Positions 53,296 through 63,419 of a DNA stretch of 64,000 bases are shown here, one piece after another. The number at the start of each line of letters is the position of its first letter. The first letter of the stretch is position 1. The notes below the pieces were generated by a model that was given only the letters and a program-made list of their open reading frames with translations, was not told the DNA's origin and searched no databases. A program made the translations under genes and the position numbers. The stretch covers positions 1,230,698-1,294,697 of the forward strand of contig JAAVVV010000001.1 in NCBI GenBank assembly GCA_023910605.1. The letters are read 5' to 3'. The DNA is from Bosea sp. (in: a-proteobacteria). Lineage in GTDB: Bacteria > Pseudomonadota > Alphaproteobacteria > Rhizobiales > Beijerinckiaceae.

Positions 53296-54792
53296 ATGAA
53301 GCCCGTTCTTTCGCTGCGCGGCATTTCCAAGTCATTTCCGGGGGTCAAGGCGCTTTCAGACCTGCAGCTTGATCTTTACCCCGGTAAGGTGACTGCCCTG
53401 ATCGGCGAAAATGGCGCAGGCAAATCCACCATCGTGAAGGTGCTCACCGGGCTGTATCAGCCCGACACGGGCCGCATCTTGATGGGCGGGGCCGAGGTGC
53501 AGTTTCCCACCGCACAGGCGGCGAGTGCGGCGGGGGTGACCGCGATTCATCAGGAAACCGTGCTGTTTGACGAATTGACCGTGGCCGAGAACATCTGGCT
53601 GGGTCATGCGCCCCGCACGCGGCTGGGCCTGATCGACCGCAGCGCGATGCGCGCGGGCGCGGTGCGGCTGCTGGAGGGGATTGGGGCCAAGCTGAACCCC
53701 GATTTGCGGCTGCGCGATCTGGGGATCGCGTCAAAGCATCTGGTCGCCATCGCACGGGCGCTGTCGATTGATGCGCGGGTGGTGATCATGGATGAACCCA
53801 CGGCGGCGCTGAGCCACAAGGAAATTCATAAGCTCTATGAGCTGGTCGAAACGCTGAAGGCGCAGGGCAAGGCCATCTTGTTCATCAGCCACAAGTTTGA
53901 CGAGATCTTCCGCATCGCCGACCGCTACACCGTGTTCCGCGACGGGCAGTTTGTCGGCGAGGGCGCGATGGGCGACGTGAGCGAAAGCGCTCTGGTGCAG
54001 ATGATGGTGGGCCGGTCGGTCGACCAGATCTTCCCGGCGCGCCAGCGCAACATCGGCCCACCTGTGTTGACCGTGTCAGGCTACAGCCATCCGACCGAAT
54101 TCGCCGACATTGGCTTTACCCTGCACCGGGGCGAGATTCTGGGGTTCTACGGGCTGGTGGGGGCCGGGCGCTCCGAGGTGATGCAGGCGCTGTTCGGCAT
54201 CACCAAGCCCTCAAAGGGCGCGACGCGGATCGACGATTCCGTGCAGGTGATCCGCTCTACCTCTGAAGCGATTGCGGCGGGGATTGTCTATGTGCCCGAG
54301 GATCGCGGCAAGCAAGGCGCGGTCAAGGGCCTGCCGATTTTCCAGAATGTCACGCTGCCCTCCCTTTCGCGCACCTCGCGCGCGGGATTTCTGCGGCTGG
54401 CCGAGGAATTCAAGCTGGCGCGCGACTACACGCAGCGGCTGGACCTGCGGGCGGCGAGCCTCGATCAGGATGTAGGGCTGCTGTCGGGGGGCAATCAGCA
54501 AAAGGTGGTCATCGCCAAATGGCTGGCCACCAGGCCGCGCGTGATCATTCTGGACGAGCCGACCAAGGGCATCGACATCGGGTCAAAGGCGGCGGTGCAT
54601 GAGTTCATGGCGGAACTGGCCGCAGAAGGGCTGGCGGTGATCATGGTCAGCTCGGAAATTCCCGAGGTGCTGGGCATGTCGGACCGGGTGATCGTGATGC
54701 GCGAAGGCCGGATCGTGGATGAGGTGACGGGGGATCGGATGACGCCCGAGGTGCTGGTGCGCGCTGCCGCCGGATTGGCGGTGGCGGCATGA
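53296..54792 (+). CDS. rhaT: Rhamnose ABC transporter ATP-binding protein
   Basis: A 498-residue double-domain sugar ATPase. The first domain has Walker A GENGAGKSTIVKVLTGL and Walker B VVIMDEPTAAL. The second has the degenerate GLVGAGRSEVMQALFGI, signature LSGGNQQKVVIAKWL and Walker B VIILDEPTKGIDIG, as in RbsA-type proteins. The start is ATG 53296, with GTG 53293 as alternative. It overlaps rhaP by four bases. Confidence 0.92.
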   Translation: MKPVLSLRGISKSFPGVKALSDLQLDLYPGKVTALIGENGAGKSTIVKVLTGLYQPDTGRILMGGAEVQFPTAQAASAAGVTAIHQETVLFDELTVAENIWLGHAPRTRLGLIDRSAMRAGAVRLLEGIGAKLNPDLRLRDLGIASKHLVAIARALSIDARVVIMDEPTAALSHKEIHKLYELVETLKAQGKAILFISHKFDEIFRIADRYTVFRDGQFVGEGAMGDVSESALVQMMVGRSVDQIFPARQRNIGPPVLTVSGYSHPTEFADIGFTLHRGEILGFYGLVGAGRSEVMQALFGITKPSKGATRIDDSVQVIRSTSEAIAAGIVYVPEDRGKQGAVKGLPIFQNVTLPSLSRTSRAGFLRLAEEFKLARDYTQRLDLRAASLDQDVGLLSGGNQQKVVIAKWLATRPRVIILDEPTKGIDIGSKAAVHEFMAELAAEGLAVIMVSSEIPEVLGMSDRVIVMREGRIVDEVTGDRMTPEVLVRAAAGLAVAA

Positions 54793-55757
54793 ACCTGTTG
54801 AAATCCCGCGAGGCGCTGCTGGCGCTGGCGATTCTGGTGCTGATCGGCGTGGTGGCGGCGCGGTTCCCGGCCTTTGTGCGGCCTGCCAATCTGGCGAATG
54901 TGTTCAACGACACCTCGCCGCTGATCATCCTGGCCATCGGGCAGATGATCGTGATCCTGACCAAGTGCATCGACCTGTCGGTTGCGGCCAATCTGGCGCT
55001 GTGCGGCATGGTGGCGGCGCTGATGAACGGCGCGGGCGTGCCGCTGGCGTTGATCCTGCCGGGGGTGATCCTGCTGGGCGCGGGTCTGGGCGCTGTGAAC
55101 GGGGTGCTGGTGTGGAAGCTGGGCATTCCGTCGATTGTGGTTACGCTGGGCACGATGACGATTTTCCGTGGGTCGATCTTTTTGATGACGGGGGGCCAGT
55201 GGGTCAACGCGCATCAGATGAGCGACGGGTTCAAGGCGCTGCCGCGCACGGTGCTGATGGGCCTGCCGGTGATGAGCTGGATGGCGATTGCGCTGATCGT
55301 GCTGTTCACTGTGGTGCTGACACGCACTGCGCTGGGCCGGTCATTCTATGCTGTTGGCGGCAACCCGCATGCGGCGGTGTATGCCGGCATCAACGTGGGG
55401 CGCAGCCAGTTTGCGGCCTTTGTGATCTCGGGCGCGCTGGCGGGCCTGGCGGGCTATCTTTGGGTCGCGCGCTACGCGGTGGCCTATGTCGCTGTTGCGG
55501 GCGGGTTTGAACTGGACGTGGTGGCCGCCTGCGTGATCGGCGGCGTGGCCATTGTGGGCGGTGCGGGCACCATCATCGGCGCTGTCTTGGGCGCGCTGTT
55601 TCTGGGCGTGATCAAGAATGCGCTGCCCGTCGTCGGCATTTCGCCATTCTGGCAGATGGCGATTTCCGGCGCGGCCATTGTGCTGGCCGTGGCCTTCAAT
55701 GCCACCCAATCGCGCGCCAAGGGTCGCATCATTCTCAAATCGGCCGAGGCAAGATGA
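54789..55757 (+). CDS. rhaP: Rhamnose ABC transporter permease 1
   Basis: A 322-residue RbsC-type permease with about eight to ten hydrophobic segments. It shows IDLSVAANLALCGMVAALMNGAG, LGIPSIVVTLGTMTIFRG and the EAA-like GGVAIVGGAGTIIGAVLGALFLGVIKNALP. It forms the channel with RhaQ. Overlap with both neighbours (ATGA) indicates coupled translation. Confidence 0.9.
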   Translation: MNLLKSREALLALAILVLIGVVAARFPAFVRPANLANVFNDTSPLIILAIGQMIVILTKCIDLSVAANLALCGMVAALMNGAGVPLALILPGVILLGAGLGAVNGVLVWKLGIPSIVVTLGTMTIFRGSIFLMTGGQWVNAHQMSDGFKALPRTVLMGLPVMSWMAIALIVLFTVVLTRTALGRSFYAVGGNPHAAVYAGINVGRSQFAAFVISGALAGLAGYLWVARYAVAYVAVAGGFELDVVAACVIGGVAIVGGAGTIIGAVLGALFLGVIKNALPVVGISPFWQMAISGAAIVLAVAFNATQSRAKGRIILKSAEAR

Positions 55758-56731
55758 CCCCGCACACCCGTATCCTGCCTGACCGTCTACAATCGCCTGC
55801 CGTGCGCGCATTGCGCAGCTGGGAAGCGATTCTGGTCGCTGTGGCCATTGCGGTGTTTGTCACCAACAGCTTTGCCTCGCCCTATTTCCTGAATGCGTGG
55901 AATCTGTCGGATGCCACCTTCAACTTTACCGAAAAGGCGCTGATCGCCTTTGCCATGGCGATGCTGATCATCGCCGGCGAGATTGATCTTTCGGTCGCCT
56001 CCATCATCGCACTGGCTTCCACCGCAATGGGGGTGGCGATGGCGGCCGGGGCGGATACGCCGGTTCTGGTGCTGGTCGGGATCGGTACCGGGCTTTTGTG
56101 CGGGGCGATCAATGGCGCGCTGGTGGCGGGGCTGGGTCTGCCCTCTATCGTGGTGACCATCGGCACCATGAGCTTATTTCGCGGCATCGCCTCCATCGTG
56201 TTGGGTGACAAGGCGTTCACAGGCTATCCGGCGAGCTTCAAGTTCTTTGGGCAGGGCTATGTCTGGTGGGTGATCAGCTTTGAGATGGCGCTGTTTGCGG
56301 CGATGGCGGTGGTCTATTATCTGCTGCTGCACCGCACCAGTTTTGGCCGTGCGGTGTTCGCCATCGGCAATAATGCCACCGCCGCGCAGTTTTCCGGCAT
56401 TCGCGTCGCGCGGGTGCGGTTCATCCTTTTCCTGCTGACCGGGGTGATGAGCGGGATTGCCGCTGTTTGCCTGACCTCGCGCCTGGGCTCCACCCGCCCC
56501 TCGATTGCGACGGGGTGGGAACTGGAGGTGGTCACGATGGTGGTGCTGGGCGGGGTCAGCATTCTGGGCGGGTCGGGCAGTATTCCGGGCGTGGTGCTGG
56601 CGGCGCTGATCATGGGCATGGTCACTTTTGGCTTTGGCCTGCTGAACGTGCCGGGGATCGTGATGAACATTTTTCTGGGCTTCCTGCTGATCGGCGTGAT
56701 TTCGCTGCCCCGTCTGCTGCGGAGGAAATGA
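55754..56731 (+). CDS. rhaQ: Rhamnose ABC transporter permease 2
   Basis: A 325-residue RbsC-type permease. It shows [56 protein letters not shown] and [32 protein letters not shown]. Partner of RhaP. Its stop codon shares bases with the start codon region of rhaM. Confidence 0.9.
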
Positions 56732-57045
56732 TGCACAAATATGCGTTCAAGATGCGGCTGCATCCGGGAGCAGAGGCGGAGTATATCCGCCGCCATGATG
56801 AAATCTGGCCCGAGCTGGTGGCCCTACTGAAGGACGCGGGCGTGCGGGATTATTCCATCCATCTGGACCGGGAAAGCCGAATCCTGTTTGGCGTGCTGTG
56901 GCGGCGCGACGATCACGGCATGCACGATCTGCCTGCCCACCCCGTCATGCAGCGCTGGTGGGCGCATATGGCGGACCTGATGGAGACCCATCCCGGCAAC
57001 GCGCCGGTGGCGGAGCCTTTGGTCACCGTGTTCCAGATGTCCTGA
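56731..57045 (+). CDS. rhaM: L-rhamnose mutarotase
   Basis: A 104-residue protein, the exact length of Escherichia coli RhaM. It starts [46 protein letters not shown] and contains the conserved [16 protein letters not shown]. It interconverts the alpha and beta anomers of L-rhamnose for the isomerase. ATG 56731 is five bases after GGAGG; the ATG at 56728 is too close. It is called rhaU in rhizobia. Confidence 0.95.
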
Positions 57046-57058
57046 CCCTGCCCTAACC

Positions 57059-58462
57059 ATGCGCAACGTCGCCGTAGTTGATATTGGCAAGACCAATGTG
57101 AAACTTGCCCTCGTGCAGGAAGGCTGCCTGCAAGAACTCGCAGTCGTCACCAAAGCCAACACTCCGCGTGCCGGCCCGCCTTACCGGCATTTCGATTTAG
57201 CCGGTCACTGGAACTTTTTCCTCCACCATCTTGCCGCCTTCCATGCTCAATTGGGGGTCGATGCGATCTCTGTGACCACGCATGGTGCCTCGGCCGTTCT
57301 GCTCGATGCCGCTGACCAGCTCGCATGCCCTATGCTGGATTACGAAGATCCTGGCCCGACTTCGCTGGCCGCTTCTTATGATGCTCTTCGCCCTTCATTT
57401 GCCGAAAGTGGGTCATCGCGCCTGCCTTTGGGGCTCAATCTCGGCGCGCAGCTCCACTGGCTTCTTTCAGCACAAAATGAGTTTTCCGGGCTAAGTCGAC
57501 ACCTTTCGCGGATCGTCACCTATCCGCAATACTGGGGCTTTCTCTTGACGGGCGAGGCGGCCTGCGATCTGTGCTCCCTTGGGTGCCATACCGATCTGTG
57601 GAATCCCCGTCAGGGAGATTTTTCGCCACTTGTCGAGCGGCTGGGCCTGACCGGCCGAATTGCTTCGCCGCGACGGCCTGACGAAACGCTCGGAAATCTA
57701 CGTCCAGCGCTTGCCGCCGCGACGGGCCTTTCTCCCAAGACACCGGTAAGCGTTGGGATCCATGACTCGAATGCCTCGCTTTACCCTCACCTCGTCTGCC
57801 GACAGGGGCCCTTTTCTGTTGTCTCTACGGGAACCTGGGTGATTTGCATGGCTATTGACGGTGATAATCGTCAACTCGATCCGTCCCGAGATACGCTTAT
57901 AAATGTAGATGCACTTGGTCGTCCCGTCGCCTCAGCTCGCTTCATGGGCGGTCGTGAATTCGAACGCCTGAGCGAAGGCCACACCGGTCCCATTACGCAG
58001 GCTGATCGTGCTGCCGTGCTCGCCAGAAAGATGGCGGTGCTACCCGCAGTTGAAGCCAACTCTGGCCCTTTCCCTGGACATCGGATGCGATGGACGGCCC
58101 AGCCCGAATCTGTTGGCCAACGTCTTGTGGCCGTGTCCTTTTATCTTGCGCTGATGACACGCACTTGTCTTGACCTGATCGGCACCCGGGGCCCGGTAAT
58201 TGTTGAAGGTCCCTTCGCGCGCAATTCCCACTATCTTGCAATGCTTTCTTCCCTGTCTCCAGAAGGCGTAGAAGCCGCTACCTCGGTAACCGGAACATCT
58301 GTAGGAGCGGCGCTTCTGTGCCTAGGCGCGGCACGGGCTCCCGACACGCAGCCTGTTCCCCGCCCAATTGATGCCGCGGACCTTTGCGCGTTTGCCAAGA
58401 CCTGGCGGTCGCTGGTCGTCCGTGAAGAATTCGATTTCCGTTCAAGCCTGGGCGTATTTTGA
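57059..58462 (+). CDS. rhaK: FGGY-family carbohydrate kinase, probable rhamnulokinase
   Basis: A 467-residue FGGY-type kinase. The N-terminal phosphate loop is VAVVDIGKTNVKLALV, then SVTTHGASAVLLDA, and the second-domain motif is GIHDSNASLYPHL with FSVVSTGTWVICMAIDG. C-terminal ATP-site glycines appear in GPVIVEGPFARNSHYLAML and TSVTGTSVGAALLCLGAA. Phosphorylation of L-rhamnulose is inferred from the operon. No ribosome binding site is visible in the 13 bases after rhaM. Codon choice is visibly less GC-biased at third positions than in the genes before it. The last residues overlap an IS5-type remnant, so the C-terminus may have been altered. Confidence 0.85.
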   Translation: MRNVAVVDIGKTNVKLALVQEGCLQELAVVTKANTPRAGPPYRHFDLAGHWNFFLHHLAAFHAQLGVDAISVTTHGASAVLLDAADQLACPMLDYEDPGPTSLAASYDALRPSFAESGSSRLPLGLNLGAQLHWLLSAQNEFSGLSRHLSRIVTYPQYWGFLLTGEAACDLCSLGCHTDLWNPRQGDFSPLVERLGLTGRIASPRRPDETLGNLRPALAAATGLSPKTPVSVGIHDSNASLYPHLVCRQGPFSVVSTGTWVICMAIDGDNRQLDPSRDTLINVDALGRPVASARFMGGREFERLSEGHTGPITQADRAAVLARKMAVLPAVEANSGPFPGHRMRWTAQPESVGQRLVAVSFYLALMTRTCLDLIGTRGPVIVEGPFARNSHYLAMLSSLSPEGVEAATSVTGTSVGAALLCLGAARAPDTQPVPRPIDAADLCAFAKTWRSLVVREEFDFRSSLGVF

Positions 58463-58855
58463 CTGTCGTTTGGGATATGGGCCGCCCAGCGCGGCGGTTA
58501 TCGCAGCCATGATCCAGGCACAATAAAGCCTGAGCCATGCCAGCAGGAGCCGGAGATTATGGCCGGCTGCGGTGAGGATGACGTTAATCGCATCACCGCT
58601 CGCACCCTTGAGGGGGTTGCGCTCCATCAGGCCGTCGCTTTTGAGGTGACCGATTACCGGTTCGATGGCGTTTCGTCGCCGCATCTCACGACGGATCGTC
58701 GGTGAGACAATGCCCCGGGTGTGAGAGATCACGACGGTCAGGTCCTGACGCTCGAGCTTGTGACCGCGATATCCGCGATCGACATAGGCCCGCCGGACGC
58801 GTTGACCGGTGAGTGTTTCGACCTGGTCGATCTGGCGGGCGAGCGTGTGACCGCA
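58442..58855 (-). pseudogene. IS5-type transposase, C-terminal remnant
   Basis: Reading on the minus strand, about 135 residues of a DDE transposase C-terminus are open: GHTLARQIDQVETLTGQRVRRAYVDRGYRGHKLERQDLTVVISHTRGIV, then RRRNAIEPVIGHLKSDGLMERNPLKGASGDAINVILTAAGHNLRLLLAWLRLY. The second catalytic Asp (VDRGYRGH) and Glu (IEPVIGHLK) are present. Upstream, the frame breaks near 58856 and no N-terminal half is recognisable. Its stop lies within the last codons of the kinase gene. It differs from the intact IS5 transposase at 46.8 kb. Confidence 0.75.
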
Positions 58856-59725
58856 TCATCTTCGCGCTTCTGACCAAGGGCGTTGAATATCGAAAGCCCG
58901 AATGGACTGCGGCAGTGGAGCCTACCCCAACTGCTTGAAACAACATAGGACGAACAGGCTTCCGGCGCGGTCAACCGCAGCGCGCCGAAAGGACCAAGGT
59001 GCAAAATGATGACGATGACCACACGGGACGAAATCCCAACGCGAGACAAGCCGATTATACCAACGCACCCTCAAGTGCGCGCCGTTGTTTGGCTGCCCGC
59101 GACGCGGACTTCATCGAGGCCAGCGGCCAAATGTGCCGCAGCGAAAGGCCGGACATATGGGCGCACCGCCTCCCGACGGACAAAGTCTCCGCTTTATCCT
59201 TGGCCCGAAGGGGTCGTTCCACATATGGTAATATGAAACTGTAATGCTAGGAATTTCCACAGAATTCGCGACACGACCCGAGAAAGACGCGTCACAGCAC
59301 CAGCGCTCTGGCCGCAGGAGCCTCATGTCGTTCACACGGCAAACTGCGACAATGACACGGGCTTGCCCGCCAGTCCTGGCCTCGGCGACAACGCCTGGTG
59401 GCAAAATGCGCAACCGGCCTCGTCATCAACGGCTTGCCGCGCCGCGCGCAAACCCACCAAAGCCCAAGCCGAAATCATCAAATCCCCATAGCGATCTGTT
59501 GCGGACCGCGGGTTCCTGCATGAGAGGCTTTCGTACGCCTCCGGCACCCGAAACCCTTCACCGTTCCGGTCGTTGTGCCGGTTGTAGCAGAGTTCCAAAA
59601 GCGGACTTCCGTGCGGACAGGCCAGGTTGCAGCGTTGCGCCAAGAGCGGTCTTGTGCACAGGTAGGCAACGACGACTCTGCGGCCGATTGCGGCTTGGCG
59701 TCGGGAAACTGACACCGCAATTTCT
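58856..59725. other. Degraded region without a recognisable gene
   Basis: About 870 bases between the IS5 remnant and the HipA operators. Open frames of 60-180 codons exist on both strands but none shows a known motif, good ribosome binding site or consistent codon bias. A minus-strand frame at 59332-59715 has a protein-like C-terminal stretch (DRYGDLMISAWALVGLRAARQAVDDEAG), which may be a gene remnant. GC content is lower than in the photosynthesis cluster. Confidence 0.4.
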
Positions 59726-59809
59726 AACTTTCTCGTATTTCAAACACGCGAAAGTTGACATTTGGAGGCCGAGAACCTAACTTTCTCGTATCTGATATAC
59801 GCGAAAGTT
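59726..59809 (+). promoter_or_regulatory. Two 31-bp imperfect palindromes in front of the HipA fusion gene
   Basis: AACTTTCTCGTAT, five bases, then ACACGCGAAAGTT at 59726-59756; and AACTTTCTCGTAT, five bases, then ATACGCGAAAGTT at 59779-59809. The left arms are identical, and the right arms differ at one base. The centres are 53 bases apart, about five helical turns. The second palindrome ends six bases before the ATG at 59816. They are the likely autoregulatory operators of the downstream toxin-like gene. Confidence 0.75.
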
Positions 59810-59815
59810 AGACTA

Positions 59816-61654
59816 ATGGCCCTTTTCCTCGTCGGCGAGAACATAGACAAGACCCGCAGCCACTACCAGGCCGGGACCGGGAGGCTCGTCCAGCTGATGC
59901 GGGGCGTTTACGTTGATGCGGGCGATGATGTCGACGCGATGGTGATGAAGCATGCGGTCCGGATCGCGCGCTACCTCTATCCGCAGGCTTACCTGTCTGC
60001 CGCCACTGCCGTCCTGCTCGGACCGACACGCGACGGTCGTCTGTTCATCAGCGGGCGGCGGATTCAACGTACACGGCTGCGGGCCCTCGAGATCATACAG
60101 AACGCAACGCCCGCACACCCTTCCGTCGCCTCCGCCGTCGTCGATGACGGGATGGGCGAGTTCACCGTCACGGTCTCTGCATTGCGTCAACGCTTTCTCG
60201 AAGCATTCCGTATTCGCAGCGAGCACGCGCAGTCTCTTGACGAAGCCATGCGCGAGACGATCGTGCAGCGCCTCATCGAGGAATATGGCAGCGCCCAGAA
60301 AGCCGCCGACGCGGTGTGGACGCTCGCCCGCGAGAATGAGTGGTACCGCGAAGGCGAACAGGCCGAGCGTCTCCTCCTACGCCGCCCTGCCGCCGCACCC
60401 GCGCGGAACGAAGCCGCTCTGGACCTGATCGTCGCCTGGCATCAGAAACCGATCGGCAATCTCACCCACGACGGCTTTGAGTGGCGCTGGAAACCTTCCG
60501 ACCAAAAAGGTCCGCCGCTTGTGCGCCAGACCGTGCCCGGCCAGCTGCCGCCCTTCATCGTCTCCCTGCTGCCTGAAGGCTGGCTGCAATTGGTTCTCGG
60601 CGAGCGCGACGAGCGCGCGCAGCTGCGCGCGGGCCGGCGCTACATGTCGAACATCACGATCGCCGAGACGCAAAAGGAACTGGCTTCCCTGCCCGCTGAC
60701 ATTCTCAGTACGTGCCTGTCCGCTTATAGGAACGGCGGTGTATTCACCGGCCGCTATGAAGGACCCGGCCGCACCGCCATCGAGGAAAGCTTTGAAGCCA
60801 ACCTCGCCGCGATTTTTGCGCGCAGCGATACCCCGCGCCTTTCAGGGATACAGATCAAGGCCCCGATGTTCCTGGCACACGATGGCGCGCTCATTCCGAG
60901 CGAGGGCCGTCCCTTCACGCATATCCTCAAGCCTGCCGGCACCAGCGGCTTTGACATGCTGCCCATCATCGAATGGCAGGCGCTGACGCTGGGCGCGGCG
61001 GCGGGCTTTGAGGCGCCCGCCATGGCGCTCGTCGCGATGCCCGACGGCATGCCGCCCGCCTTGCTGGTCGAGCGCTTCGACATCCGCCGGGGTGACAATG
61101 ATACGCGGTTCCTCGCGCTTGAGGATTTCGCATCGGTGCTGGGGGTGCCGACCTCTGCCAAGTATGACGGCACGATCGAGCGCGTCGCCCGCGCCGTGCG
61201 GCCTCTTTCAACAGATCCCGATGCTGACCTGCTCCTCATACTGAAGCGCGCGCTGTTCGCCTGGCTGATTGCCGACGGCGACATGCACCTCAAGAACCTG
61301 GCTCTCCTGAAGATCGCGGAGCCCGGCAGCGATACGTTCGCGAGCGTGCGCGTCGCGCCGCTCTATGACGCTGTGACCACCCGCGTCTTCCCGCGCCTTG
61401 CGCGCGACCGCATGGCCCTGAAGCTCAACGGCAAGGATGACCGCCTGCGCCGCGCCGACTTCAAGGCCCTCGCCGCCACCGCCGGTCTCAGGGCTGCCGA
61501 CGCGGACGCGGCCATTGATGAACTGGCATCCGCACTCGCCCGCGCGCTAGGCGGCCTGGGCCCCGTGCCGCTGGTGGAGCCGGCCTCGCCCGCGGCGGAC
61601 GCGGCGGCGGCCATGCGCGCGCTCGTCAAAGAGCGCCTTGAATCCCTCACCTAG
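59816..61654 (+). CDS. HipA-type kinase fused to AbiEi-like N-terminal region
   Basis: A 612-residue protein. Residues 1 to about 185 resemble the winged-helix antitoxin/regulator AbiEi group (LVQLMRGVYVDAG, then YLYPQAYLSAATAVLLGPTRDG). From about 200 a HipA N-terminal subdomain follows (IGNLTHDGFEWRWKP, LPPFIVSLLPEGWLQLVLG), then the HipA kinase core with ILKPAG, LLVERFDI and ADGDMHLKNLALL, whose Asp489 and Asn494 match the HipA catalytic and Mg-binding residues, and APLYDAVTT. HipA proteins phosphorylate translation factors such as tRNA synthetases. No separate hipB precedes it. No ribosome binding site lies before ATG 59816; a TTG at 59762 is an alternative. A PIN gene follows 13 bases later. 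Confidence 0.8.
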   Translation: MALFLVGENIDKTRSHYQAGTGRLVQLMRGVYVDAGDDVDAMVMKHAVRIARYLYPQAYLSAATAVLLGPTRDGRLFISGRRIQRTRLRALEIIQNATPAHPSVASAVVDDGMGEFTVTVSALRQRFLEAFRIRSEHAQSLDEAMRETIVQRLIEEYGSAQKAADAVWTLARENEWYREGEQAERLLLRRPAAAPARNEAALDLIVAWHQKPIGNLTHDGFEWRWKPSDQKGPPLVRQTVPGQLPPFIVSLLPEGWLQLVLGERDERAQLRAGRRYMSNITIAETQKELASLPADILSTCLSAYRNGGVFTGRYEGPGRTAIEESFEANLAAIFARSDTPRLSGIQIKAPMFLAHDGALIPSEGRPFTHILKPAGTSGFDMLPIIEWQALTLGAAAGFEAPAMALVAMPDGMPPALLVERFDIRRGDNDTRFLALEDFASVLGVPTSAKYDGTIERVARAVRPLSTDPDADLLLILKRALFAWLIADGDMHLKNLALLKIAEPGSDTFASVRVAPLYDAVTTRVFPRLARDRMALKLNGKDDRLRRADFKALAATAGLRAADADAAIDELASALARALGGLGPVPLVEPASPAADAAAAMRALVKERLESLT

Positions 61655-61667
61655 AAGGAGGAACGCG

Positions 61668-62105
61668 ATGCTCAAACTCCTGATCGATACGAGCGTGTGG
61701 CTCGACCTTGCCAAGGACTATCGCAACCTGCCGCTCCTCACGCTGCTGGGAGACCTGGTGGATCGTGACGAAATAGAACTTTTGGTGCCGGAAGTCGTCC
61801 GCGAGGAGTTTGACCGCAACCGGGCGCGTGTCCTCGCCTCCGCCAAGGCCAGCCAGGGAGAAGTCTTCAAGCGCGCCCGCAACGCGGTGCGCCAGTTCGG
61901 CAACGAAGAAACAAAGGCCGTGGTGCTGCGCGAGCTGGATGACGTCGCCCATAGCCTTGCCATTCACGGCGAGGCTTCGAACGAATCCATGCAGCTCGTC
62001 GAGAAGCTGCTTGAGGGTCCTGAACCGATCATTGCAAGCGTCATCGCCCGCCAGCGCGCCGCAAACCGGGGTCTTGACCGGCGGGCACCGTTTCACGGCA
62101 GCAAG
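61668..62105 (+). pseudogene. PIN-domain (DUF4935-like) gene truncated by an IS1380 remnant
   Basis: The protein starts MLKLLIDTSVWLDLAKDYRNLPLL with AGGAGG nearby, 13 bases after the HipA fusion, so they formed one operon. The first PIN aspartate is in LLIDTSVW and an acidic helix is in VPEVVREEFDRNRARV. A stretch ANRGLDRRAPFHGSK resembles the DUF4935 region before the third acidic residue. After about 62105 the sequence is IS1380 transposase DNA in the other orientation, and the frame runs to 62168 only by chance. The last acidic residues and C-terminal half are missing, so nuclease activity is unlikely. Confidence 0.7.
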
Positions 62106-62252
62106 CCGTTCGGCAATGCCCATCCGCCGTGCAGCGGCAGCCAGAAGCATCACGCCCCCGTCCGATGACAGCCGACCGCCGTCAAGAGCGGCTGTGATTT
62201 TCCTGCCTCCCACGGCTGGAAAAGTGAAGGGAAGTCCCGTAACGTCAGTCAT
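62100..62252 (-). pseudogene. IS1380-family transposase, N-terminal fragment
   Basis: About 50 residues read on the minus strand from ATG 62252: MTDVTGLPFTFPAVGGRK, then ITAALDGGRLSSDGGVMLLAAAARRMGIAERLAAV. The DGGRLSSDGGVMLL segment with its following GIAERLAA is diagnostic of IS1380-family transposases. The rest of the gene is absent; the sequence changes into the PIN gene. It records an old insertion followed by deletion. Confidence 0.75.
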
Positions 62253-62352
62253 GGCGGGTGTGGCTTGCGGAGATGGCGTGGCCCGGATCGGTGTAAACAG
62301 CCAAATCCTACACGATATCATACCTTTACGCTACATCCACCAACCCAGGGCG
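62253..62352. other. Leftover IS1380 end and junction to IS30
   Basis: About 100 bases between the IS1380 transposase start and the IS30 left inverted repeat. They are relatively AT-rich and contain no open frame of note. They probably include the IS1380 leader, but no inverted repeat partner remains to prove it. Confidence 0.35.
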
Positions 62353-63419
62353 GTCTCAAATCTGAAGTGCATCACCGAGTTTCGATAGCTCAATCATAAA
62401 GACTTCCTCGGGTGTTTGGAAGCCGAGGACGGCGCGCGGTCTGGTGTTGAGGCTGTGGGCGATCCTGTCGAGATCGCGCTGGCTGTAGATCGACAGGTCG
62501 ATGCCCTTGGGCAGGTACTGCCGGACGAGGCCATTGAGGTTCTCGCTGGACGGCCTCTGCCAGGGGCTGTGCGGATTGCAGAAGTAGACCGGCATGCCAA
62601 GGCGGCTGGTCAGTTCCTTGTGGCGGGCCATCTCCTTGCCCTGATCATAGGCGAGGCTGCGGCGCATCAATTTTGGCACCTTGGCAAAGGCTTTGGTGAA
62701 CCCGTCCAGTGCCGCCTGCGCCCCGCAATCCTTCATCCTGGCGATCAGGGTGTAGCGGCTCTTGCGCTCGACCAGCGTGCCGATGGCGCTGGCATTTCCT
62801 GCGCCCTTGACGAAGTCGCCCTCCCAGTCGCCCGGAATGAGCCGATTGAGCGCATCTTCAGGCCGTTCGTGGATCGAAACCATGTCCGGCAGACGCCCCT
62901 GCCGGTTTGTCCCCCGCCCGCGTGCGCCGCGCGTCTTGTGGGCCTGGCGCAGACAACCGATCAGATCCTTGCGCAGCTCTCCGCGCGGGATCACGTAGAT
63001 CGCCCGGTAGATCGTCTCGTGGCTGACAACGGGCAAGGAAGGACCGTTCGCATCAGGATCGCTCATGGCCTTCAGCTTGCCGGAAATCTGCTGCGGTGAC
63101 CATGCAAGGCGCAAGTGCTTCAGCACATACTCGCGCAGCATCGTCCCCTCGCGCAGCTTGACCAGTCCCCGCCGCCGTCTGGCCCGGCAAGAAGAGGCTG
63201 CCGAGGAAGCGTCATATCCTTGCGCCGTGCCAGAACTGCGTTTGATCTCGCGCGATATGGTCGGTCCAGAGCGCCCCAGATGCCCGGCTATCCAGGACAG
63301 CTCCGACCTTCATTCAGATGCCGATGAATGAAATTGCGTTCCTCACCGCTGAGGTGATTGTAAACTTGGCCCATCAATCACCCGATAATCCGTCAGGTGA
63401 TGCACTTCAAATGTGAGAC
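62353..63419 (-). mobile_element. IS30-family insertion sequence, 1067 bp
   Basis: The ends are 23-base inverted repeats matching at 21 positions: GTCTCAAATCTGAAGTGCAT followed by CAC at 62353-62375, and the complement of GTCTCACATTTGAAGTGCAT followed by CAC at 63397-63419. One transposase gene runs on the minus strand and its stop codon lies inside the left repeat. No clear target duplication is visible. Confidence 0.85.
62356..63374 (-). pseudogene. IS30-family transposase with N-terminal frameshift
   Basis: The C-terminal 261 residues are intact: AWSPQQISGKL, VSHETIYRAIYVIPRGELRKDL, GDWEGDFVKGAGNASAIGTLVERKSRYTLI, SLAYDQGKEMARHKELT and HSPWQRPSSENLNGLVRQYLPKG, which carry the IS30 DDE residues. 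The N-terminus MGQVYNHLSGEERNFIHRHLNEG begins at 63374 but reaches a TAG at 63288-63290. The expected continuation SWIAGHLGRSGPTISREIKRS lies in another frame. The break is between about 63291 and 63310. IS30 elements are not usually made by frameshifting, so this copy is probably inactive. Confidence 0.8.

Follow-up and report, generated by a model that had tools for sequence, protein, structure and literature searches.

HipB represses through paired palindromic operators, and in HipBA the repressor and the kinase are the products of separate genes, while HipBST comprises three. According to the available part of a HipA-kinase survey (PMC8262856), its stated rule was to include kinases next to which a putative antitoxin is encoded, although its tree still contains the one-gene kinases YjjJ and HipL. 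Published AbiEi consists, as far as the accessible portion of the source describes it, of a winged helix and a C-terminal domain, and basic residues of both are needed for DNA binding (PMC7319586). Here we describe a gene in the window (the whole 64,000-nucleotide stretch of Bosea sp. DNA that was analysed) that lies at 59816..61654 on the forward strand, starts with ATG and encodes a 612-residue HipA-type kinase with an extra N-terminal region. Its family shares the kinase-core motifs of HipBA, and repression through paired palindromes would be the second likeness; however, repressor and kinase would here form one chain, and the HipS-like and repressor-like parts that are separate in HipBST are fused. 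Judging from sequence, we give a probability of about 0.72 to the reading that this is a single-gene, self-repressing HipA-homologous kinase whose N-terminal region represses its own promoter via the paired operators. The adjacent-antitoxin rule may explain the absence of this family from the survey, at least as that rule is worded in the portion available to us (PMC8262856).

The open reading frame carries the features that a sequence-only reading had placed in it, namely RGVYV at residues 29-33, YLSAATAV at residues 59-66, Asp489, Asn494 and the PLYD motif with Asp518. An alternative longer frame with a TTG start at 59762 is also open in the window; most relatives have a start codon aligned with the ATG or with the next codon. 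The kinase core matched HipA_C (PF07804) at 60839..61543 on the forward strand (residues 342-576, E 1.2e-36), scoring 126.8 bits where the cut-off is 30.5. Residues Lys348, Lys372, Asp489, His491, Asn494 and Asp518, which we take to be Gly-rich loop, catalytic and metal-binding residues, were invariant across the 57 of 81 family sequences used for this alignment and also in 84 of 84 rows; Ser343 was present in 84 of 84 rows, and in the 57-sequence alignment it was conserved at a level of at least 90%. The closest solved structure was HipT(Lp), both for the single protein (E 5e-19) and for the family profile (E 5e-27), which, together with the HipS-like matches, constitutes the likeness to HipBST. 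These matches, to HipS or the N-subdomain 1 of HipA, are weak (E 0.04-0.12) and cover 60437..60673 on the forward strand (residues 208-286); in one distant relative a sub-threshold Couple_hipA match fell at 232-257 of its translated stretch. Because the N-subdomain matches start at residue 208, the first ~200 residues are additional to an ordinary HipA kinase. The possibility that residues 1-190 are just an ordinary HipA subdomain, against which the sequence-only reading had asked to be checked, is thus not indicated by the sequence, given that the weak HipS-like matches lie downstream of the extra region. Residues 1-340 of the window protein gave no Pfam, NCBIfam or PADLOC match at E 1 or better.

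The same reading had called the N-terminal region AbiEi-like, and this label is weakly supported. The profile of the family aligned with that of AbiEi_3 (9 sequences) over 138 colinear columns with a score of 25.0 and an hhalign probability of 4.6%; the alignment spans the RGVYV wing and then places a VSxxRQRFLEAF stretch opposite ISTAERSILE. With DUF6088 (15 sequences), 26 columns at the wing aligned with a score of 26.8 and a probability of 7.9%. None of 200 column shuffles reached the real score in either comparison, the best being 22.6 for AbiEi_3 and 25.1 for DUF6088. Two other stretches of the same proteins, used as controls, gave scores between 12.5 and 21.3, and a comparison of AbiEi_3 with DUF6088 gave 40.6; the best shuffles and the control at 21.3 are close to the real scores. 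On the window protein, the weak profile match comprises a winged-helix segment that includes RGVYV (59816..59920, residues 1-35) and extends to residue 162 within the remainder of the AbiEi-like region (59921..60385, residues 36-190), both on the forward strand; the remainder includes a conserved basic stretch, R82-x-Q84-R85-T-R87-x-R89. While this shuffle-tested similarity, weak as it is, speaks for the label, the Pfam search and the comparison with one AbiEi protein (probability 0.2%) do not. Residues 1-200 of the window protein matched no Pfam family, with no AbiEi model above the cut-off; AbiEi_3_N was touched by one of 30 members (E 0.029) and an unrelated family by seven of 30 (0.025), and other Pfam families matched as many or more members, equally weakly. 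Several AbiEi_4 (PF13338) loci had been discarded, their frames being long or doubtful and not evidently of AbiEi type, and a weak PDB match of the N-terminal region to MutL (E 0.16) was judged to be due to chance. Overall, we regard a weak relationship of the N-terminal region to AbiEi as probable.

Among genome contigs 248 relatives were confirmed, and the family counts given below use the best 80 of these 248 (64-81% identity, mostly full-length), which biases them toward close relatives, several of them near-identical. The domain order proposed for the window protein was recovered in its homologues, with the same layout across a family present in many proteobacterial genomes and plasmids and a protein length of 611-615 aa in 77 of 81 (window included). 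One relative, L117, which is partial and has an in-frame stop, was excluded from the alignments. Most source records belong to alpha-, beta- and gammaproteobacteria; a few metagenome-assembled records carry the labels of other phyla. Of plasmid records, 399 match, 69 of them across at least 80% of the protein; the N-terminal region is matched in 84 records, 46 of which are near-identical Pseudosulfitobacter plasmids. Of 199 genomes from the taxonomic family to which the window belongs, 43 match, and only five of them, the window's own included, cover the N-terminal region, the remaining matches beginning at residue 262 or beyond. In stricter samples, each of which includes the window's genome, the counts were 9/397 for the order, 6/385 for the class and 3/398 for the phylum. 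This patchy distribution suggests that the kinase family has spread horizontally. One copy was found among IMG/VR contigs, and the single match among phage records covers kinase residues 355-523 only. A near-identical copy on a Devosia plasmid (L127, CP104975.1; 98% across the N-terminal region, operators identical) matches in four pieces and is unannotated as a gene, so that it appears broken.

Genes conserved beside the kinase were sought by clustering the flanking open reading frames, and 25 clusters were listed. Among these, many are near-identical Mesorhizobium flanks or shadow frames, and two are the hipB and hipA of some loci. The largest marks a release-factor-3 (prfC-type) gene, which in 11 of 80 relatives lies downstream of the kinase gene in the same orientation, 84-605 nt beyond its stop (L042, L043, L045, L046, L052, L053, L056, L064, L067, L068 and L070; Pfam was run on the L056 copy). 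These loci form a single tree branch, mostly betaproteobacterial by title, and because the association is confined to this branch, it was not taken as a family-wide partner; the neighbour may mark an insertion site or hint at a link to translation. An AbiEii nucleotidyltransferase partner was absent from the window's scanned neighbours, and the flanking sequences indicate no partner gene common to the whole kinase family. Near individual family members we also noted an annotated AbiEi-AbiEii pair (L171:1-1625, AbiEi_1 confirmed) and an annotated Xre/RES pair (L132:6097-6552).

The shared domain order, the constant protein length, the patchy spread and the lack of a family-wide partner would all suit an all-in-one toxin-antitoxin, in which the AbiEi-like region represses the promoter and also blocks the attached kinase, the toxin being freed when the operators are no longer bound or the N-terminal region is cleaved. 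The assignment of the antitoxin function of AbiE to the C-terminal domain, as given in the accessible portion of PMC7319586, is in line with this. However, AbiEi counters a nucleotidyltransferase toxin and not a kinase, and the HipS-like segment of the window protein could restrain the kinase instead, which leaves the all-in-one toxin-antitoxin a possible but doubtful explanation. More specifically, we tentatively propose a single polypeptide that joins an AbiEi-type antitoxin/repressor to the HipA kinase. Binding to the operators would then repress the gene and at the same time keep the kinase inactive, and the switch would be either occupancy of the operators or phosphorylation of the N-terminal region by the attached kinase; we would not expect this proposal to hold.

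The sequence-only reading had seen no hipB-like gene beside the kinase, and none was found among the scanned flanking open reading frames, which matched PIN, transposase or FGGY families or no family. Nor do homologues consistently carry hipB: a search at E <0.01 with a model of one HipB type detected a HipB-like gene within 1.5 kb in only 11 of the 80 relatives and not in the other 69, with less than 1.5 kb available on one side at 16 of the 80 loci. Some of the 11 adjoin a hipA of their own (L042, L037 and L072), and at L056, L052, L046, L043 and L045 the hipB-like gene is convergent, 14-32 nt past the kinase stop; no hipA was seen beside that of L056. These nearby genes, and the finding that the toxicity of YjjJ, a single-gene kinase, is rescued by E. 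coli HipB (PMC9948734, in the part of that report available), are what one would cite for a HipB encoded at an unlinked locus and restraining the kinase in trans, with the N-terminal region acting as a repressor only. On the other hand, no HipB-like gene was found within 1.5 kb in 69 of the 80 relatives, the hipB genes of L042, L037 and L072 sit next to hipA genes, and the window's genome contains no second match to the kinase protein. We therefore consider a HipB acting in trans unlikely.

For the self-repressing kinase, the operators are the first line of evidence. Two 31-bp palindromes, each with 13 of 15 pairs matched, precede the gene: operator O1 at 59726..59756, the last two bases of which fall within the proposed -35 hexamer, and operator O2 at 59779..59809, which covers most of the proposed -10. 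As described earlier, six bases separate the end of the second from the ATG; the "53 bases" said to part them proved to be the distance from start to start, the gap being 22 bp. Operators were scored by a leave-one-out weight matrix at 79 loci (window included, some near-identical) against 1,580 shuffled upstream stretches, a procedure preferred over palindrome-only calling, which misplaced O1 at some loci; L031 and L038 were left out of the operator counts because their upstream DNA is too short. The expectation that palindromes would also precede the homologues was borne out, with O2 found above the top shuffled score in 78 of 79 loci and O1 in 74 of 79. The half-site consensus is AACTTTCnCGTAT. 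In the window's genome, with up to 3 mismatches allowed, the motif occurs at O1 and O2 only, and a regulon is unlikely because the motif is nowhere else. O2 was seen without O1 at L021, L028, L037, L056, L133, L134, L135 and L175, and neither operator was seen in the upstream DNA of L069 and L128, which are possibly rearranged or decaying copies. Of 18 loci fetched later, 15 were counted as new, since L120, L121 and L122 duplicate the operators of L066, L069 and L078 and their contigs are equally long.

The start-to-start spacing of O1 and O2 falls into groups of 43 bp (one locus), 52-55 bp (three loci) and 61-68 bp (70 loci). At the later-fetched loci with two clear sites it was 53-55 or 62-64, and at three distant loci with weak distal sites it was called at 47, 58 and 61. 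The groups correspond to about 4, 5 and 6 helical turns, which, as independent shifts are few, is no more than suggestive; if the single-polypeptide toxin-antitoxin proposed above were true, such spacings would reflect two dimers touching each other on the same face of the helix. A putative promoter on the forward strand (59755..59783) consists of TTGACA at 59755-59760, a 17-bp spacer and a weak -10, TAACTT, at 59778-59783. Its TTG is conserved: 64 of 78 loci have this triplet at -25 to -23 relative to O2, compared with a frequency of 4.8% among background positions. A strict consensus promoter scan did not report this TTGACA/TAACTT promoter, so the proposal depends on the conservation and placement of the TTG; the best sites of an unanchored promoter search were scattered. 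Conserved operators are thus located at the kinase gene's own promoter, as is expected of an autoregulated toxin-antitoxin locus. No RNA element matched Rfam in 59200-62400.

The second line of evidence links a residue of the protein to a base of the operator. When corrected mutual information was calculated for all residue-base pairs, residue 83 and base 13 ranked top with 0.245, the next pair reaching 0.163. Codon 83, which covaries with this base, is located at 60062..60064 on the forward strand and encodes Ile in the window; the residue lies within the nearly invariant basic stretch R82, R85, R87 and R89. All 9 distinct loci with Lys83 have C at base 13, in 36 of 36 half-sites, whereas a majority of C without Lys83 was found in only 2 of the 76 other loci; Ser83 was accompanied by G at base 13 in at least one half-site in 7 of 10 loci, compared with 3 of 75. 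When residue states occurring in 5 to 81 of 86 rows were compared, Lys83 with C13 had the top phi value, 0.90, ahead of a second-best 0.68, and Fisher's test, which ignores relatedness, gave p 1e-10. L113, which is on the same contig as L039, was removed from the final Lys83 counts and kept in the mutual-information and tree rows, and L021 and L069 were excluded from the covariation and tree rows as having no clear O2 by palindrome score.

On a quick tree built from residues 201-612 only, with 35 of 79 inner branches left open, Lys83 changed state five times and C13 seven times, gain and loss pooled. In nearly all of 200 random pairings, Lys83 and C13 changed together in all three supported independent pairs, and in the remaining pairings they did so in two of three; the opposite change never occurred. 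Three independent pairs are below the reach of a significant sign test alone, and most Lys83 rows fall within a poorly resolved part of this tree. The later-fetched loci with clear operators, all without Lys83 (it had no carriers among the later-fetched loci), showed no C majority at base 13. A second pair, Ala12 with T at base 3, was seen in one clade and at three later-fetched Ala12 loci; L039, which has T alongside Lys12, is an exception. Summed by region, mutual information showed no N-terminal excess, the top-ranked residues being scattered along the protein, and consequently the case for operator reading rests on the specific residue-base pairs. A contact at residue 83 would fit the DNA-binding basic residues of both AbiEi domains, as described in the available part of PMC7319586. 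Taken together, the covariation indicates that the kinase protein very probably reads its own operators, and the assignment of operator binding to the N-terminal region is supported by the conserved paired operators, their being the sole sites in the genome and the covariation of residue 83 with base 13.

These data also bear on whether the palindromes serve another regulator of which the kinase gene is merely a target, since L069 and L128 have retained the N-terminal region without operators. However, the motif is absent from the rest of the window's genome and tracks the gene across proteobacterial classes, and base 13 associates with residue 83 above any other residue state compared, which makes a foreign regulator very improbable.

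Insertion-sequence genes flank the kinase gene, as seen from a DDE_Tnp_1_6 transposase fragment upstream (58445-58729, reverse strand) and an integrase-core (rve) open reading frame downstream (62359-63138, reverse strand). Further upstream, at 54789-58462 on the forward strand, a group of genes resembling a sugar-uptake operon comprises two permease-like open reading frames and a short one, recognised by eye, together with an FGGY carbohydrate kinase. A PIN_12 nuclease-type open reading frame (61668-62168, forward strand) begins 13 nt after the kinase stop, with GGAGGA ahead of it. Its match ends early (139 of 172 profile positions), and its 3' part overlaps the start fragment of an IS1380-type transposase on the opposite strand; from their sequences, both look cut at a junction near 62100. 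An operon in which the kinase part regulates a PIN toxin, as this close spacing and the GGAGGA might suggest, can hardly be maintained, given that the PIN gene is cut short in the window and, as a candidate partner, was found in none of the 80 relatives (four with less than 500 bp of downstream DNA).

The intact kinase residues, the paired operators, their uniqueness in the genome and the relationship of residue 83 to base 13 thus favour the reading of a self-repressing kinase, and from them we infer binding, repression, cooperation between the sites and kinase activity of the predicted HipA-type protein. O1 and O2 would be bound by pairs of the N-terminal ~200 residues, which probably form a winged-helix repressor of AbiEi type. 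Occupancy of O2 would cover the -10 region and the transcription start while O1 abuts the -35, and the gene's own promoter would be shut off. When released or over-produced, the kinase core, with its catalytic residues complete, would probably phosphorylate a translation-related or other target; until then, restraint may come from within the protein, through its N-terminal region or its HipS-like segment, and not from an antitoxin acting in trans.

A built-in helix-turn-helix in a single-gene HipA kinase is already known from YjjJ (HipH), and what appears to be new here is the AbiEi-like, operator-paired version. No AbiEi-HipA fusion was recognised among the titles of the literature searched, where a mention could have passed unnoticed, and the term "AbiEi" is absent from the main text of PMC8262856, the part of that survey at hand. 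The window family offers a handle on such kinases, through its conserved paired operators, through a residue that may set specificity and through natural variants altered in both operator and protein letters. Like the family described here, HipH is the product of one gene and joins a HipA-type kinase to an N-terminal helix-turn-helix extension, proposed as a possible cis-acting antitoxin; but that extension is of ~100 aa, with the helix-turn-helix at 15-34, whereas the one in the window family is of ~200 aa and AbiEi-like, and the available text on HipH contains no mention of paired operators (PMC8262856). The window protein is also not a YjjJ-type equivalog by the NCBIfam model NF007297, which scored 12.3 bits (cut-off 401; E 0.051) over 50 kinase residues. 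HipL is likewise a one-gene kinase with HipS-like and presumed DNA-binding domains, as far as the same partial source goes (PMC8262856); in HipL, however, the kinase comes first and a HIRAN domain forms the C terminus, while the window family begins with its AbiEi-like region. With AbiEi, from AbiE and Rv2827c, the family shares an RGxY wing followed by a VSxxRQRFLEAF / ISTAERSILE-like stretch, and presumably the role of binding inverted repeats at a promoter, described for AbiEi in the accessible part of PMC7319586; it differs in being fused to a kinase, in the absence of an AbiEii partner from the neighbourhood scanned and in the weakness of the similarity. TakA (Rv1044) is an AbiEi-related antitoxin for which kinase activity has been reported; yet, in the portion of PMC7205606 available, that activity is placed in TakA's own C-terminal domain, whereas in the window family it would belong to a HipA core.
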